Assembly (NCBI GenBank): GCA_902798745.1
Contig: CADBXM010000004.1
Span: forward strand, 56,805 to 120,804
Reading direction: 5' to 3'
Origin: an uncultured Eubacteriales bacterium
GTDB lineage: Bacteria; Bacillota; Clostridia; Peptostreptococcales; Anaerovoracaceae
Length of the DNA: 64,000 bases
Shown here in pieces: positions 32,044 to 38,502 of the stretch. Under the pieces are notes generated by a model. The model did no database searches, was not told the DNA's origin, and saw nothing but the letters and a program-made list of their open reading frames with translations. The translations under genes and the position numbers were made by a program. The stretch's first letter is position 1. The number at the start of each line of letters is the position of its first letter.

Positions 32044-32481
32044 TTACAGGTTATGTTTGTTCCTGGATGCTTTGATCCTGCTCATAGCTCTTGAAAGCTC
32101 TGCAGCTGCAAGCTCAGCATCACGGTTTGAATTGGCGCGCTTTATAGCCTCTCTGGCTTTTTCCTCAGCGCGTCTTGCCCTGGCTTCGTCTACTTCCTCA
32201 GGTCTCTCTGCTGTATCCACCAGAATAATGACTTCACCGTTCTCTACTTTGAGGAGACCATCGGACACGACTATAGTCTGCCTGCCGGACTGCGATTCTC
32301 CTTCTTCGCCCGTCCCGACCGGCTCATATTCGATGATGCCCGGGATTATCGCCATGATAACATTGGCGTGATGCGCCATTATGCCCACGCTTCCCTCAGT
32401 TGTAGGAAGGCTTACTATCTCAGCTTCGCCTTCATATACCATATGATCGCTTGCCAGTATCTGTAATTTGAAAGTATTCAT
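32044..32481 (-). CDS. atpC: ATP synthase epsilon subunit
   Basis: A 145-residue subunit of the F1 central stalk. The N-terminal beta-sandwich includes FKLQILASDHMVYEGEAEIV and GSVGIMAHHANVIMAI. The C-terminal helical hairpin (EARARRAEEKAREAIKRANS) can inhibit ATP hydrolysis. Slightly longer than usual. It follows atpD by 73 bases and ends the operon. Confidence 0.95.
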   Translation of the reverse strand: MNTFKLQILASDHMVYEGEAEIVSLPTTEGSVGIMAHHANVIMAIIPGIIEYEPVGTGEEGESQSGRQTIVVSDGLLKVENGEVIILVDTAERPEEVDEARARRAEEKAREAIKRANSNRDAELAAAELSRAMSRIKASRNKHNL

Positions 32482-32554: not shown

Positions 32555-33943
<1,389 letters not shown>

Positions 33944-34843
33944 TTAACCTCTCTTACTTTTAAGGCTACGCGCACCCGATGAGATCTCTGTGATCTCCTG
34001 AGTGATCGCATTCTGCCTGATATGATTGTATTCAAGCCTCAGACTTGCGAGCAACTCGCTCGCGTTCTCGTTTGCGGCATCCATCGCCATCATTCTTGCG
34101 CTCTGCTCTGAAGAATAACTGTTGACCAGCGCCGAATAAACGTAGCCAACCAGATATGACTGTATGCTCCTTGAAAGCACGGTCTCCACATCAGGCTCGT
34201 ATTCGAATACCGTAGACGCGTCGGAAGCACGCTCATCACCCTGCGGAACAAAATCGTCCTTATCGAAAGGGATCAGCCTGTCATGCATGGCTGTGCCCGG
34301 GCTCATACCTCCGGAATACTCCGTATAGCATACATAGAGCCTGTCAAAAGCTCCGCCATCGAATTCGTCGAGCAACTCGCGTGTGATGTCTCTGGCCATA
34401 GCCAAAGACGGCTCGTTCATCGAGTGCTCAAAAGTCTCACAAACATTCGAGCCGCGGCTCCTGAAAAATCTCCAGCCGTAATCTCCGACTATGTAGAGCT
34501 TGTATTCGTTGCTCCGTTCCATAAGAGCCAAAGTATCCTTAACGACGCTCTGGTTGTATGCTCCGGCAAGGCCTTTGTCGGCGGTGATCACGAGGATGCC
34601 GTTCCTGCCGCCATGCGATGATTCATCGATACTCGAATCAAAGTATTTGCTCCTCAGCCCTGTTCCAAACGCGAACATCCTGCGGATCTCGCGACGAAGC
34701 AAGTCAAAGTAAGGCTTGGTCTCCTCCGCCTCTTTACGAGCTCTTCTCATCTTTGTGGACGAGATGAGGTACATGGCGTTGGTGATCTTCTGTGTATCGC
34801 CTACACTTTTTATTCTGTTTTTGATTTCTTTAGTAGATGCCAT
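33944..34843 (-). CDS. atpG: ATP synthase gamma subunit
   Basis: A 299-residue rotor shaft subunit. The N-terminal helix (EIKNRIKSVGDTQKITNAMY) and C-terminal helix (EYNHIRQNAITQEITEISSG) form the coiled coil inside the alpha-beta ring. The central Rossmann-like domain includes ILVITADKGLAGAYN. It lies 6 bases after atpA. Confidence 0.97.
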   Translation of the reverse strand: MASTKEIKNRIKSVGDTQKITNAMYLISSTKMRRARKEAEETKPYFDLLRREIRRMFAFGTGLRSKYFDSSIDESSHGGRNGILVITADKGLAGAYNQSVVKDTLALMERSNEYKLYIVGDYGWRFFRSRGSNVCETFEHSMNEPSLAMARDITRELLDEFDGGAFDRLYVCYTEYSGGMSPGTAMHDRLIPFDKDDFVPQGDERASDASTVFEYEPDVETVLSRSIQSYLVGYVYSALVNSYSSEQSARMMAMDAANENASELLASLRLEYNHIRQNAITQEITEISSGARSLKSKRG

Positions 34844-34849
34844 CGATTA

Positions 34850-36592
34850 TTAGTAGCCCGCTTTTTCACGAAAATCCTTTGAGATATCGATGATATCAGC
34901 CTTCAGGTCGTCATCCAGCTGACCGCTCGAATCGATACGGTCGCAGATGTCATGATGCTCTGTCTCGAACATCTCGTTGAGTTCGTCAATGAAATTGTTG
35001 ATCTCTCCGACCGGAATGCCTTCCATCGTGTGAGCGAGCGCCATTACAAGAGTGATTACCTGCTCGTGCTGGCTCTTCGGCTTATACTGAGGCTGCCTGA
35101 GCATGCGCATAAGGCCCTGGCCATAATCGAGCTGTCTCTTTGTCTGATCGTCGAGGTCGGATGCGAACTGCGTGAACACCTCCATCTCACGATACTGAGC
35201 GAGGTCGATCCTGAGTGTACCTGCAGCCTTCTTCATGGCTTTTGTCTGAGCGTCTCCTCCTACACGGGATACCGAAAGTCCTACGTTTACCGCAGGTCTC
35301 TGGCCCGAGAAGAAGAGGTCGGACTCAAGGAAGATCTGACCATCTGTGATCGAGATGATGTTTGTCGGAATGTATGCCGATACGTCGCCCGCTTGCGTCT
35401 CTACGATAGGAAGCGCTGTGATCGAACCTCCTCCGATACTATCTGAAAGCCTTGCAGCTCTCTCAAGAAGTCTTGAATGCAGATAGAATACGTCTCCCGG
35501 ATAAGCCTCACGTCCAGGCGATCTGTCAAGCAACAGAGACAGAGCTCTGTATGCTACAGCGTGCTTTGAAAGGTCGTCGTATACGATCAGTACGTCCTTG
35601 CCCTTATTCATGAAGTACTCCGCCATGGCGCAGCCAGCGTATGGCGCTATGTACTGGAGAGGGGCAGGGTCGCTCGCAGACGCGCACACGATAATGGAGT
35701 GATCCATTGCTCCGTGCTTGATAAGTGTCTGCTGTATCCTTACTACGGACGATGTCTTCTGTCCGATAGCTACATAAATACAGATACAGTTCTTACCGTT
35801 CTGGTTGATTATGGCGTCGGTCGCGATAGCTGTCTTACCTGTCTGACGGTCTCCGATGATGAGCTCTCTCTGTCCACGTCCGATAGGGAACATGGAGTCG
35901 ATGGAGAAAATACCCGTTTCAAGCGGAGTATCTACAGGCTGCCTGTCGATGATAGGCGGTGCCTGAGCTTCTACAGGCATATAGCCCGAAGCTTCGATCT
36001 CGCCGAGCCCGTCAATAGGAGTTCCGAGCGAGTCAACGACTCTCCCGAGGAAGCCCTCGCCGACCGGTGTACCCGCTGTCTTGCCTGTTCTCTTCACGGC
36101 AGAACCCTGTGTAACGTCTTCATCACTGCTGAAGAGCACGCAGCCGATCTCTGTGCCTCGGATATCCTGTACCATGCCTCTTACGCCGCCCGCGAAGAGG
36201 AGGATCTCTCCGAATGTAGCGTGGTCAAGCCCGCCTACGGTAGCGATACCGTCTCCTACGGTAAGGACTTCTCCTACCTGCTCCGCCATCAACTCAGGCG
36301 TCCAGCTTGAGATGGATTCCTTCAGAAGAGGAATGATATTGCCGTTATCGGTAGGCACTTTGACGAGCGTGTCTCTCAGCTGACGGAACCTGCCGCCAAC
36401 AGACCAGTCGTAAATGTCCGAACCTACTTCAAGTCGGAAGCCGCCCGGGAATGCGTCTGATTCTACCCATTCCAGAGGGACTTCCTGCCCATATTTATTT
36501 TTAAGGAAGCGTCCGAATCTGTCCTGCTGCTCTTTGCTCGGCTCAGCTGCCGAATACAGCAATCCTTTCAGGACTTTGTCTTCATTACTCAT
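34850..36592 (-). CDS. atpA: delta C-terminal domain fused to ATP synthase alpha subunit
   Basis: A 580-residue protein, some 75-80 residues longer than usual alpha. Residues about 10-75 (SAAEPSKEQQDRFGRFLK ... FPGGFRLEVGSDIYDWSVGG) match the C-terminal domain of the delta/OSCP subunit, whose usual pattern is GG-x-x-hydrophobic-x-G-D-x-x-x-D-x-S-x-x-x-R-L. Normal alpha follows from about 88: VGEVLTVGDGIATVGG, P-loop GDRQTGKT, VLIVYDDLSKHAVAY and the arginine-finger region VGLSVSRVGGDAQ. No separate atpH exists in the operon; atpF overlaps this gene by 4 bases, exactly where atpH normally lies. The six-helix N-terminal domain of delta is absent. The fusion would tie the stator directly to one end of each alpha. 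Confidence 0.9.
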   Translation of the reverse strand: MSNEDKVLKGLLYSAAEPSKEQQDRFGRFLKNKYGQEVPLEWVESDAFPGGFRLEVGSDIYDWSVGGRFRQLRDTLVKVPTDNGNIIPLLKESISSWTPELMAEQVGEVLTVGDGIATVGGLDHATFGEILLFAGGVRGMVQDIRGTEIGCVLFSSDEDVTQGSAVKRTGKTAGTPVGEGFLGRVVDSLGTPIDGLGEIEASGYMPVEAQAPPIIDRQPVDTPLETGIFSIDSMFPIGRGQRELIIGDRQTGKTAIATDAIINQNGKNCICIYVAIGQKTSSVVRIQQTLIKHGAMDHSIIVCASASDPAPLQYIAPYAGCAMAEYFMNKGKDVLIVYDDLSKHAVAYRALSLLLDRSPGREAYPGDVFYLHSRLLERAARLSDSIGGGSITALPIVETQAGDVSAYIPTNIISITDGQIFLESDLFFSGQRPAVNVGLSVSRVGGDAQTKAMKKAAGTLRIDLAQYREMEVFTQFASDLDDQTKRQLDYGQGLMRMLRQPQYKPKSQHEQVITLVMALAHTMEGIPVGEINNFIDELNEMFETEHHDICDRIDSSGQLDDDLKADIIDISKDFREKAGY

Positions 36593-37080
36593 TTATCCGC
36601 CTCCTCTGCAGCATCGAGGAATTGGTCGAATGCATCCGAAGCAGTCTGCTCCAGAGTGAGTTTCTCCATGGCCTCTGTGACCATGTCTGTGATCTCTTTC
36701 TGTGCAGAAGCGATGATCTCGTTCTTCTCTCTCTCAGCTTCAACGCGCGCATCAGAAACTATCTTCTCAGCCTCTGTCTTTGCCGCAGTCACTCTGCGCT
36801 CACGCTCAGCTTCGACCTCTTTACCCATCTTGCTCTTGACTTCCTTCATCTCATCGGAGAAAGCTTTCTTCTTCTCTTCGTAAGAAGTTTTTTCGCTTTC
36901 AGCCTCTGCGAGAGTCTGCTCAGCCTTCTGGTCGATCTCTGCGTAGTGATCGACTCTCTTCTGCATGAAGTTCTTTACAGGCTTGTACAGAAGAATGTAA
37001 AGGCATCCGAAGAGTATCGTGAAGTTAAACAGATGGAGCAATATTTGCTGCCAGTCTATATTAAGTGGTACTCCTGTCAT
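36589..37080 (-). CDS. atpF: ATP synthase b subunit
   Basis: A 163-residue peripheral stalk subunit. One N-terminal membrane segment (FNFTILFGCLYILLYKPV, about 18-35) is followed by a long charged coiled coil (EAERERRVTAAKTEAEKIVS). The C-terminus, normally contacting delta, ends AFDQFLDAAEEADK. Its stop overlaps the fused delta-alpha gene by 4 bases. Confidence 0.95.
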   Translation of the reverse strand: MTGVPLNIDWQQILLHLFNFTILFGCLYILLYKPVKNFMQKRVDHYAEIDQKAEQTLAEAESEKTSYEEKKKAFSDEMKEVKSKMGKEVEAERERRVTAAKTEAEKIVSDARVEAEREKNEIIASAQKEITDMVTEAMEKLTLEQTASDAFDQFLDAAEEADK

Positions 37081-37090
37081 TTTTACTCTC

Positions 37091-37510
37091 CTACAGTACG
37101 AAGATGATAAGTATTACTACGAGCAGCGCGTAAATGATCGCCGTCTCAATGAATACAAGTCCCAACATGAAGTTGGTTCGTATCTTGCCTTCTGCCTCTG
37201 GTTGTCTCGCAATACCCTGTGATGCGCCGGATGCAGCAACTCCCATACCGATACCGCCGCCGCCTGCAGCAACACCGATCGCGATACCTGTCGCTATGGA
37301 CTTGAGACCAATGAGTGTGTTTTCGCTGTCCGCGGAAGCTGCGTTTGTGATATAGCCGTCTTCGGACTGTTCCGCAGTGATCTGCGATGCGTCAGCGACC
37401 GATCCGGAATCAGCGAATACGGTGACTATCGCAAATGTCGCCATGAGTACGATCATGACTCCGAGAACGATTGCGATTCTTGAAAGTGCCTTTCTGCTCA
37501 GATTTAACAT
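37091..37510 (-). CDS. atpE: ATP synthase c subunit with N-terminal extension
   Basis: A 139-residue protein; usual c subunits have 75-90. The C-terminal 75 residues are a normal hairpin: GIAIGVAAGGGGIGMGVAAS, the ARQPEA loop, and TM2 with the ion-binding Glu in GLVFIETAIIY. Before it come a hydrophobic segment (about 12-32, ending TVFA) and a polar Ser/Ala/Asp-rich stretch. This may be a cleaved signal peptide or a third membrane helix. At the TM1 position where Na+-type rotors have Gln, Met is found, which favours H+ coupling. Confidence 0.92.
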   Translation of the reverse strand: MLNLSRKALSRIAIVLGVMIVLMATFAIVTVFADSGSVADASQITAEQSEDGYITNAASADSENTLIGLKSIATGIAIGVAAGGGGIGMGVAASGASQGIARQPEAEGKIRTNFMLGLVFIETAIIYALLVVILIIFVL

Positions 37511-37623: not shown

Positions 37624-38502
37624 CTAAGCGGCAGCTTCGTCTTTTACAACAGTCTGACGTTTCTTGCCGTCTTTGCGCCTTTGTTTCTTCTCTTTCGGTG
37701 GCTTTGGCGTGTTGTCCGATACCTGTCCATAGAAGAGCGAGCAGAGCATCGTAAGTACGTATGCCTGGATCAGCGCGTGGAGCAGAGTGAACATTACTCC
37801 TACCAGTACAGGCAGCACATAGCTTAGAGATGTGTAATAGTATACAAGCTCTGTAACCAGTGCACCCGAGAGCAGCGCTCCGAAAAGTCGGAAGGAGAGG
37901 GAGATAGGAAGCGAGTACTCTTTGAGAGTCTTGCCTATGCCCTTTACTCCATTACCGGCGATACCGCCCGACATTATGATGAGATAAGTAAGACATCCCA
38001 TCATTATTGCTCCGTTGATGTCCGAGAGCGGAGCCGGCAGCGATATTGATCGACCTGTGGTCGTGATCGCCTGTACTCCGAAGAGCTCGAACAGCGTGCC
38101 TGTGAATATGTATGCACCTGCGGCAAATATGTATGCGCCAAGGAAGCCGTTGATCTTGGAATTCTCCTTTGCCATATTGTCAAAGAGTCCGACCACTGTC
38201 TCGAGCACCAGCTGTATCTTGCCAGGCACCATAGTGAAGCGCGGTATGATGAATATCCTGCATATAAGCGCCAGCACTATTAGGAAGCTCGATACGATGA
38301 CACCCGCCATCATGCCCGGATTGACATCCATGATCCCAAACAGGCTTACTTTGTTGACGTCGTGCAGCACGGCATCTCTCATCATCTCCTGAATGGTCTC
38401 TTCTTCGCCTTCCCCGCCTCCGGTGAGTATGGCACCGACCATGAATATCAGCGCGATGATGCCGAATATGATGCCGGCCTTTCTACGCTCAGCCTTAGTC
38501 AT
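37624..38502 (-). CDS. atpB: ATP synthase a subunit
   Basis: A 292-residue membrane stator subunit. The essential arginine is in PISLSFRLFGALLSGALV, and GVMFTLLHALIQAYVLTMLCS forms the last helix facing the c ring. The C-terminal tail is long and very basic (KPPKEKKQRRKDGKKRQ). First gene of the operon; no atpI lies upstream, where a vapBC pair diverges. AAGGAG precedes the start. Confidence 0.96.
   Translation of the reverse strand: MTKAERRKAGIIFGIIALIFMVGAILTGGGEGEEETIQEMMRDAVLHDVNKVSLFGIMDVNPGMMAGVIVSSFLIVLALICRIFIIPRFTMVPGKIQLVLETVVGLFDNMAKENSKINGFLGAYIFAAGAYIFTGTLFELFGVQAITTTGRSISLPAPLSDINGAIMMGCLTYLIIMSGGIAGNGVKGIGKTLKEYSLPISLSFRLFGALLSGALVTELVYYYTSLSYVLPVLVGVMFTLLHALIQAYVLTMLCSLFYGQVSDNTPKPPKEKKQRRKDGKKRQTVVKDEAAA

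Follow-up and report, generated by a model that had tools for sequence, protein, structure and literature searches.

Fusion of the delta C-terminal domain to the alpha subunit in F-type ATP synthases of anaerobic Clostridia: candidates for natural multi-stalk enzymes

The window examined here is a stretch of 64,000 nucleotides from an uncultured Eubacteriales gut bacterium of the family Anaerovoracaceae (assembly GCA_902798745.1, contig CADBXM010000004.1, positions 56,805 to 120,804 of the forward strand), and all coordinates below are those of the window unless a contig is named. Its minus strand carries, from 38502 to 32044, an F-type ATP synthase operon in the order a-c-b-alpha-gamma-beta-epsilon. 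The alpha gene, atpA (34850..36592), encodes 580 amino acids (aa) that comprise the C-terminal domain (CTD) of the delta subunit followed by a full alpha subunit. Upstream of it lie atpB (a subunit; 37624..38502; 292 aa with an extra N-terminal hydrophobic segment; Pfam PF00119), atpE (c; 37091..37510; 139 aa with a long N-terminal extension; PF00137) and atpF (b; 36589..37080; 163 aa), and downstream atpG (gamma; 33944..34843; PF00231), atpD (beta; 32555..33940; PF00006) and atpC (epsilon; 32044..32481; PF02823). With a, c, b, gamma, beta and epsilon all present and the P-loops, the a-subunit arginine and the c-subunit glutamate all kept, the operon is predicted to encode a complete F-type ATP synthase.

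A first-pass annotation of this DNA had proposed that the first ~75 residues of the alpha protein match the C-terminal domain of delta/OSCP and had suggested a profile search of the N-terminal residues as a check. The OSCP family PF00213 matches residues 4-76 (36365..36583) with 31.5 bits (cut-off 22.3; E 2.2e-7) over profile positions 99-172 of 172, which corresponds to the second half of the family only, and solved ATP synthase delta chains also align with this part of the protein in a comparison with chains of solved structures. A short linker (residues 77-85; 36338..36364) leads to the alpha N-terminal helix, which is kept (residues 86-97; 36302..36337; a helix by homology), and to the alpha core (residues 105-576; 34865..36280) with the P-loop GDRQTGKT and the VSRVGG motif intact. 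The three alpha domains PF02874, PF00006 and PF00306 all score above cut-off over residues 105-574, and the atpA equivalog TIGR00962 covers residues 85-576 with 723.4 bits (cut-off 484.45). Together these sequence matches, on which the assignment of the fold rests, establish the fusion of a delta C-terminal domain to alpha in the predicted protein. The Shine-Dalgarno (SD) sequence AGGAGG of the fused gene (36600..36605) lies within the end of atpF, 7 nt upstream of the alpha start, and the atpF stop at 36589 overlaps the fused gene in the sequence ATGA, the 4-base overlap noted in the first pass. The b subunit gave no OSCP match up to E 1 and is thus not a b-delta fusion of the mycobacterial type. 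The six-helix N-terminal domain of delta, the part that binds the N-termini of alpha, was not found in the fused gene, where the Pfam match is to the C-terminal half only, and no atpH lies within the window operon.

The same architecture has been built by design. Ueno et al. (2025; PMC12229609) have deleted the delta N-terminal domain of the Bacillus PS3 enzyme and fused the rest of delta to alpha. Expressed in E. coli, the engineered enzyme spontaneously acquired as many as three stalks, and an a-subunit came with every stalk. Its H+/ATP ratio was 5.8+/-0.4 as compared to 3.0+/-0.2, and ATP was synthesized at about half the proton motive force. The authors argue that the N-terminal domain, which sits on the three-fold axis, normally restricts the stalks to one, and note that in ordinary enzymes the alpha N-terminal helix contacts delta. 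They have also named natural fusions without the N-terminal domain, namely the Acidaminococcus fermentans operon and UniProt entries G4Q3K6 and A0A1I2C5T3, and left the proof open; by that description they share the architecture of the source enzyme. The engineered deltaDeltaN-alpha protein and the source protein share the order of delta C-terminal domain, short linker and full alpha, both are 580 residues long, and both go without the N-terminal domain and atpH (PMC12229609). By this architecture, with the CTD at the N-terminus of alpha, a short linker and neither the delta N-terminal domain nor atpH found, the source enzyme fits the type described by Ueno et al. Among the solved-structure matches listed (22 in one search, 60 of 68 in another), chain 9jc1_I (580 residues; molecule name delta plus alpha) is the only one that aligns with both parts, and it is taken to be the Ueno et al. 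design, judged by name and length. Compared with 9jc1_I, the natural linker is 3 residues shorter and of other sequence, and YDWS stands in the natural protein where the design has YDGS. The epsilon C-terminal domain is kept in the source enzyme and deleted in the engineered one (PMC12229609), and the long a and c subunits of the source enzyme are also unlike those of the engineered PS3 enzyme.

Other known arrangements place the delta domain differently. In the N-ATPases, delta is absent or fused with b (PMC11738941, PMC5709465), and like them the source operon has no free delta. The N-ATPase operon starts with beta-epsilon, whereas the source operon runs a-c-b-alpha-gamma-beta-epsilon, and the fused protein scores 598.8 bits against the N-ATPase alpha profile TIGR03324, below its cut-off of 750.5. 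An N-ATPase-like operon in one surveyed genome (L061 in G055) encodes a 255-aa b frame with a delta C-terminal domain at its C-terminus, in contrast to the source enzyme with this domain on alpha; a complete delta lies elsewhere in that genome. Likewise, the mycobacterial b-delta fusion, for example 7jg5_d (chain of 445 aa), carries the delta domain on the stator partner b rather than on alpha; we take this chain to be mycobacterial, with the whole delta kept and one copy per enzyme. Full-text searches, which extend to main texts rather than supplements, turned up no paper besides PMC12229609 that we recognised as describing fusions of the delta CTD to alpha. PMC4478896 has reported all F-type subunits in 62 butyrivibrio genomes and, in the portion of its text available to us, is uninformative on fusion.

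The fused domain is under purifying selection. Comparison of this domain with that of the closest relative gives a ratio of nonsynonymous to synonymous substitutions (dN/dS) of 0.06 (dN 0.034, dS 0.544), and six pairs span about 0.06-0.15, with dS above 1 in two of them; the alpha core gives about 0.05 in the closest pair. Across 34 genus rows, no variation is seen at 25 of the first 96 positions, among them G50 G51 F52, Y61 D62 W63 S64 and I86 I87 P88 L89; M1 is invariant partly because of how the start was chosen. Measured from DWS to the PL of the alpha-helix motif, the distance is 28-30 residues for 79 of the 80 loci from named genomes (the survey is described below), one locus not being parsed, and because this distance is nearly constant a fixed geometry rather than a floppy tether is suggested. 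A decaying or purely hydrolytic, uncoupled F1, which the unusual a and c subunits might bring to mind, is scarcely credible in view of the complete a-c-b-alpha-gamma-beta-epsilon operon, the intact P-loops, a arginine and c glutamate, and the low dN/dS of the alpha core.

A second, shorter alpha, made from an internal start or by proteolysis, would leave the delta domain on one of the three alphas only. Of 78 named loci, 52 do have an in-frame ATG, GTG or TTG in the stretch that separates the domains, and in 10 of the 52 it comes with an SD-like stretch of at least 5 bases; an ATG at residue 102 is found in 23 of 80 named loci, the source locus included, with at most 4 SD-like bases. Yet 26 of the 78 loci lack any such codon there, 40 offer only codons with at most 3 SD-like bases, and the candidate positions differ. 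In the source gene no SD sequence precedes the linker GTG or the TTG/ATG at 101-102, and initiation at 102 would strip the alpha N-terminal helix. We consider a second alpha of this kind very unlikely. The scan covered 78 of the 80 named loci (two at contig edges were dropped) and stopped before residue 102, codons and upstream bases being inspected in 20 sequences as well; for the real start it used whichever of several upstream codons scored best, a choice that favours that start (SD of at least 4 bases in 77 of 78). No conserved internal start between the domains was found in the 78 named loci scanned.

The first pass had also stated that the operon holds neither atpH nor a delta N-terminal domain, and had named a full atpH elsewhere in the genome as one finding that would refute its reading. 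The source genome is a draft of 41 contigs, 93% complete, and a full atpH was not found in it: a whole-genome search with PF00213 gave one match only, the fused alpha, and a profile made from the delta N-terminal domain alone (17 rows) gave none at E<=0.1. The latter profile was run on 38 genomes, 34 with the fusion and four controls with an ordinary delta. All four controls match; three of them had contributed rows to the profile and one (G061) had not. Among the 34 fused genomes, 29 had no match at this threshold, one (G637) had a single match at chance level (E 0.0997), and four (G386, G514, G604 and G455) had a complete delta of 180-191 aa elsewhere, presumably part of a second, ordinary enzyme. 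These four deltas stand outside the profile rows and were found nonetheless, which shows that the profile reaches foreign deltas. Hence a strongly diverged N-terminal domain that lies elsewhere and completes a normal single stator appears highly improbable; the genome sequence is only a draft, and a profile may overlook helical domains that have diverged far, but 29 of 34 fused genomes lack a match where all controls have one, and the engineered enzyme works without this domain (PMC12229609). Of 19 named genomes checked, 13 have the fused delta domain only and six have a complete delta elsewhere as well; no second delta was found in Flintibacter muris DSM 110149, Anaeromassilibacillus senegalensis An867 or Pseudoflavonifractor sp. 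60. As judged from these searches, the case for the absence of atpH and of the delta N-terminal domain is strong, not absolute, for the source genome because the draft is 93% complete, and secure for the group because the absence recurs in related genomes. That alpha is fused in another 35 genomes of the genus too argues against an assembly error.

The survey of atpA and atpH in related genomes that the first pass had recommended shows that the fusion is widespread and recurs in many gut anaerobes. In the genus, 36 of 47 genomes have a fused alpha (truncated at a contig edge in G014); the remainder are three with a separate atpH and alpha (G005, G013 and G061), one with an assembly gap (G031) and seven with no match or only weak ones to other rotary-ATPase subunits. 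The counts for genus, order and class include the source genome, and those beyond the genus are lower bounds because the profile was built from the source genus. Fused frames of 579-616 aa were found in at least 30 of 393 genomes of the order, and CTD-only fusions in at least 22 of 391 genomes of the class (the frame in G507 being shortened to 509 aa), where three genomes have a full-length fusion. Among 299 genomes of the phylum, CTD-only fusions outside the class were found only in G1071 and G1001. The latter genome has both a CTD-only delta-alpha fusion (L252) and, beside an ordinary alpha, a separate delta with a long low-complexity tail (L253).

Named genomes were scanned with patterns that contained YDWS and [ND]IIPLLKE, and the best 80 of 111 relatives were taken, of which 34 share their alpha with one of 35 compared loci of the genus. 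In every one of the 80, alpha carries a fused delta C-terminal domain; the N-terminus is visible in 78 and none of these has the N-terminal domain, and the other two start at contig ends. The presence of YDWS in 80 of 80 loci and the exclusively CTD-only form are properties of a pattern-selected set and not of a random sample. The nearest upstream gene is atpF in 78 of the 80 loci, never more than 87 nt away from the fused frame, and 77 loci have atpB-atpE-atpF there. Carriers include the strains A. senegalensis An867, Pseudoflavonifractor sp. 60 and F. muris DSM 110149. A full-length delta, with N- and C-terminal domains, is fused to alpha in four loci with frames of 671-703 aa, which were identified by profile in L052 (G047), L199 (G729) and L213 (G562) and by eye in L249 (G659). 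In another locus (L053 in G059, minus strand) a stand-alone delta of 121 aa matches positions 1-20 and 81-170 only, so that most of the N-terminal domain is gone in an unfused protein.

Trees of the alpha core, with the fused part excluded, were made from hand-picked rows. The first had 97 rows (L018 gave no alpha) and was rooted on one long outgroup row; in the second, 13 near-duplicates and the N-ATPase outgroup were removed and five rows added, one of them (L253) partial with 36% of the columns. A large clade of the second tree (Shimodaira-Hasegawa-like approximate likelihood ratio test 99) holds 47 of 50 CTD-only alphas together with three separate-delta and three full-fusion rows, and in both trees it stands separate from ordinary alphas, whether these come from the order, from the genus or from second operons. 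The source alpha and its kin fall in the fused clade, and the ordinary alphas of G005, G013 and G061 cluster with other families of the order. Since these same-genus alphas group elsewhere, it is probable that the fused operon came in by transfer, in place of an ordinary one, and did not arise within the genus. Low in the large clade stand separate-delta lineages (L201, L206 and L212) and full-length delta-alpha fusions (L199, L213 and L249), and in L201, where delta is separate, this delta already bears DWS, the motif seen in the fused domain. This suggests a route from a separate delta through a full delta-alpha fusion to loss of the N-terminal domain, with the full-length fusions as plausible surviving intermediates; the direction is inferred, because the root is one long outgroup row. 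L052, on a long branch outside the large clade, is probably an independent full-length fusion.

Three CTD-only fusions, L250 and the pair L251-L252, also lie outside the large clade and have DGS or DAS at this motif, as in ordinary delta. A single grouping of all 50 CTD-only rows was rejected by the approximately unbiased test (p 0.00026), a constraint chosen after the free tree had been seen. The grouping of the 47 rows without L250, L251 and L252 was not rejected (p 0.66), and these may form one clade; the constrained tree had the better likelihood, which means that a better tree than the quick one exists, and a history of two losses inside the large clade, hinted at by the trees, was dropped. 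Because the larger grouping is rejected and the smaller one is not, the CTD-only fusion has at least two origins, three on the tree.

The membrane part of these enzymes is distinctive as well. In the main fused clade, a is often 270-300 aa long, with an extra N-terminal hydrophobic segment and a conserved stretch such as MRDAVLHE. About 13 residues are missing before the RLFG helix, which reads RLFGA or RLFGS as opposed to RLFGN or RLYGN in separate-delta relatives. The c subunit of this clade is about 109-147 aa in most members, with a signal-like N-terminus; the lengths of both a and c rest on starts picked by rule. Ordinary short a and c subunits are found in two fused loci (L237 and L238) and in separate-delta or full-fusion relatives (L232-L236), and the former show that the fusion occurs with two kinds of Fo. 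In Na+-binding c subunits, a glutamine is part of the Na+ motif. In the alignment, c here has methionine at the position of that glutamine. On account of this replacement protons are the likelier coupling ion, under the rule given in PMC11738941 that any missing Na+ residue means H+.

A source of the gradient was also sought. Of the 35 fused genomes tested, 34 have Rnf above cut-off, and so do all eight others, two of which have the full-length fusion; as a mark of fused enzymes it is therefore non-discriminating, and its presence in both groups shows no more than that a gradient source is at hand. The source genome, a 41-contig draft, gave no rnfC above cut-off, which represents a loss or a draft gap; the gene is present in the other 42 of the 43 genomes tested.

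The first-pass annotation had reasoned that three alphas would bring three delta domains per complex and hence an altered stator, and this idea gains support from the engineered enzyme of the same domain order, in which cryo-electron microscopy (cryo-EM) showed both (PMC12229609). It was made unaware that the architecture was already in print for a few sequences and that several stalks, not merely a different one, may be possible (PMC12229609). In the mechanism proposed here, all that is left of delta is the C-terminal domain at the alpha N-terminus, and this domain is predicted from homology to bind b. Because the head contains three alphas, it would offer three equivalent docking sites for b2, and the N-terminal domain, whose place on the three-fold axis normally keeps the number of stalks at one, would be gone. 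Up to three b2-a stators could then assemble per enzyme, each a passing ions over the same c-ring, and more stators would mean more ions per ATP and would allow ATP to be synthesized when the ion gradient, such as one built by Rnf, is low. By analogy with the engineered enzyme, we lean slightly towards the source enzyme being a natural multi-stalk, low-gradient ATP synthase with an average above one stalk.

The chief alternative is a single-stalk enzyme in which b2 is bound by only one of the three delta domains, either because a and b are limiting or because there is no room for a second a; the fusion would then save a gene and tie the stalk covalently to alpha. The operon has one atpB and one atpF, a has its extra N-terminal hydrophobic segment, and in a rough comparison the SD energy of atpF is somewhat weaker in fused operons (-7.5 vs -9.7 in ordinary ones), all of which would suit a single stalk. 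However, the engineered enzyme in E. coli took more stalks spontaneously (PMC12229609), the three sites are identical in sequence, and the atpB energy in the same rough comparison is equal (-8.2 in both). With starts guessed by rule, the gamma energies are -3.5 in fused and -8.6 in separate-delta operons, and those of alpha and beta are about equal; these comparisons have 86-92 fused and 11-12 separate-delta rows, many of them from one genus, and no conclusion is drawn from them. We regard the single-stalk enzyme as a real but rather doubtful alternative.

Several points weigh against the multi-stalk interpretation itself. The extra hydrophobic segment on a would need room around the c-ring, which counts mildly against three stalks. 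The stalk or subunit stoichiometry of a natural member was not found in the literature searched, and the source genome is the sole one of 35 fused genomes without rnfC. Six of the 19 named fused genomes carry a complete delta in addition. The engineered enzyme averaged about two stalks, fewer by cryo-EM, and its ATP-driven pumping was below that of the wild type (PMC12229609).

Taken as a whole, the proposal of a class of natural multi-stalk ATP synthases that has evolved repeatedly in anaerobic gut and rumen Clostridia, with up to three b2-a stators per rotor, about two to three times the usual number of ions per ATP, a visible evolutionary route and remodelled a and c subunits in the main clade, is a joint one, and we put it forward tentatively, as about as apt to fail in some part as to hold or slightly more so. 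Ions per ATP set the smallest gradient still able to make ATP. In known enzymes this number varies with the size of the c-ring, and Ueno et al. have added the number of stalks, which can alter it and which nature may use (PMC12229609). The present survey extends the one genus and two database entries of that paper to a large clade with named strains. As far as the literature searches show, the breadth, the convergence, the intermediates and the distinct Fo are new, and the idea itself was already in print. If the proposal is true, ATP would be obtainable from small fermentation gradients. Convergence in origin would point to an adaptive trait. Annotation by the presence of atpH may label such enzymes incomplete.

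Two further loci deserve mention. On contig C1 of the source genome (G000 C1:109830-112197), open frames of 593 and 462 aa lie side by side, show weak similarity to alpha and probably belong to a second rotary ATPase of the V/A type, the type and subunit names being given from size. In the window, a PIN-domain gene (PF01850; 38696-39336, plus strand) directly follows a MazE-like small gene that scores below the Pfam cut-off; the two are divergent from the atp operon and likely form a toxin-antitoxin pair.
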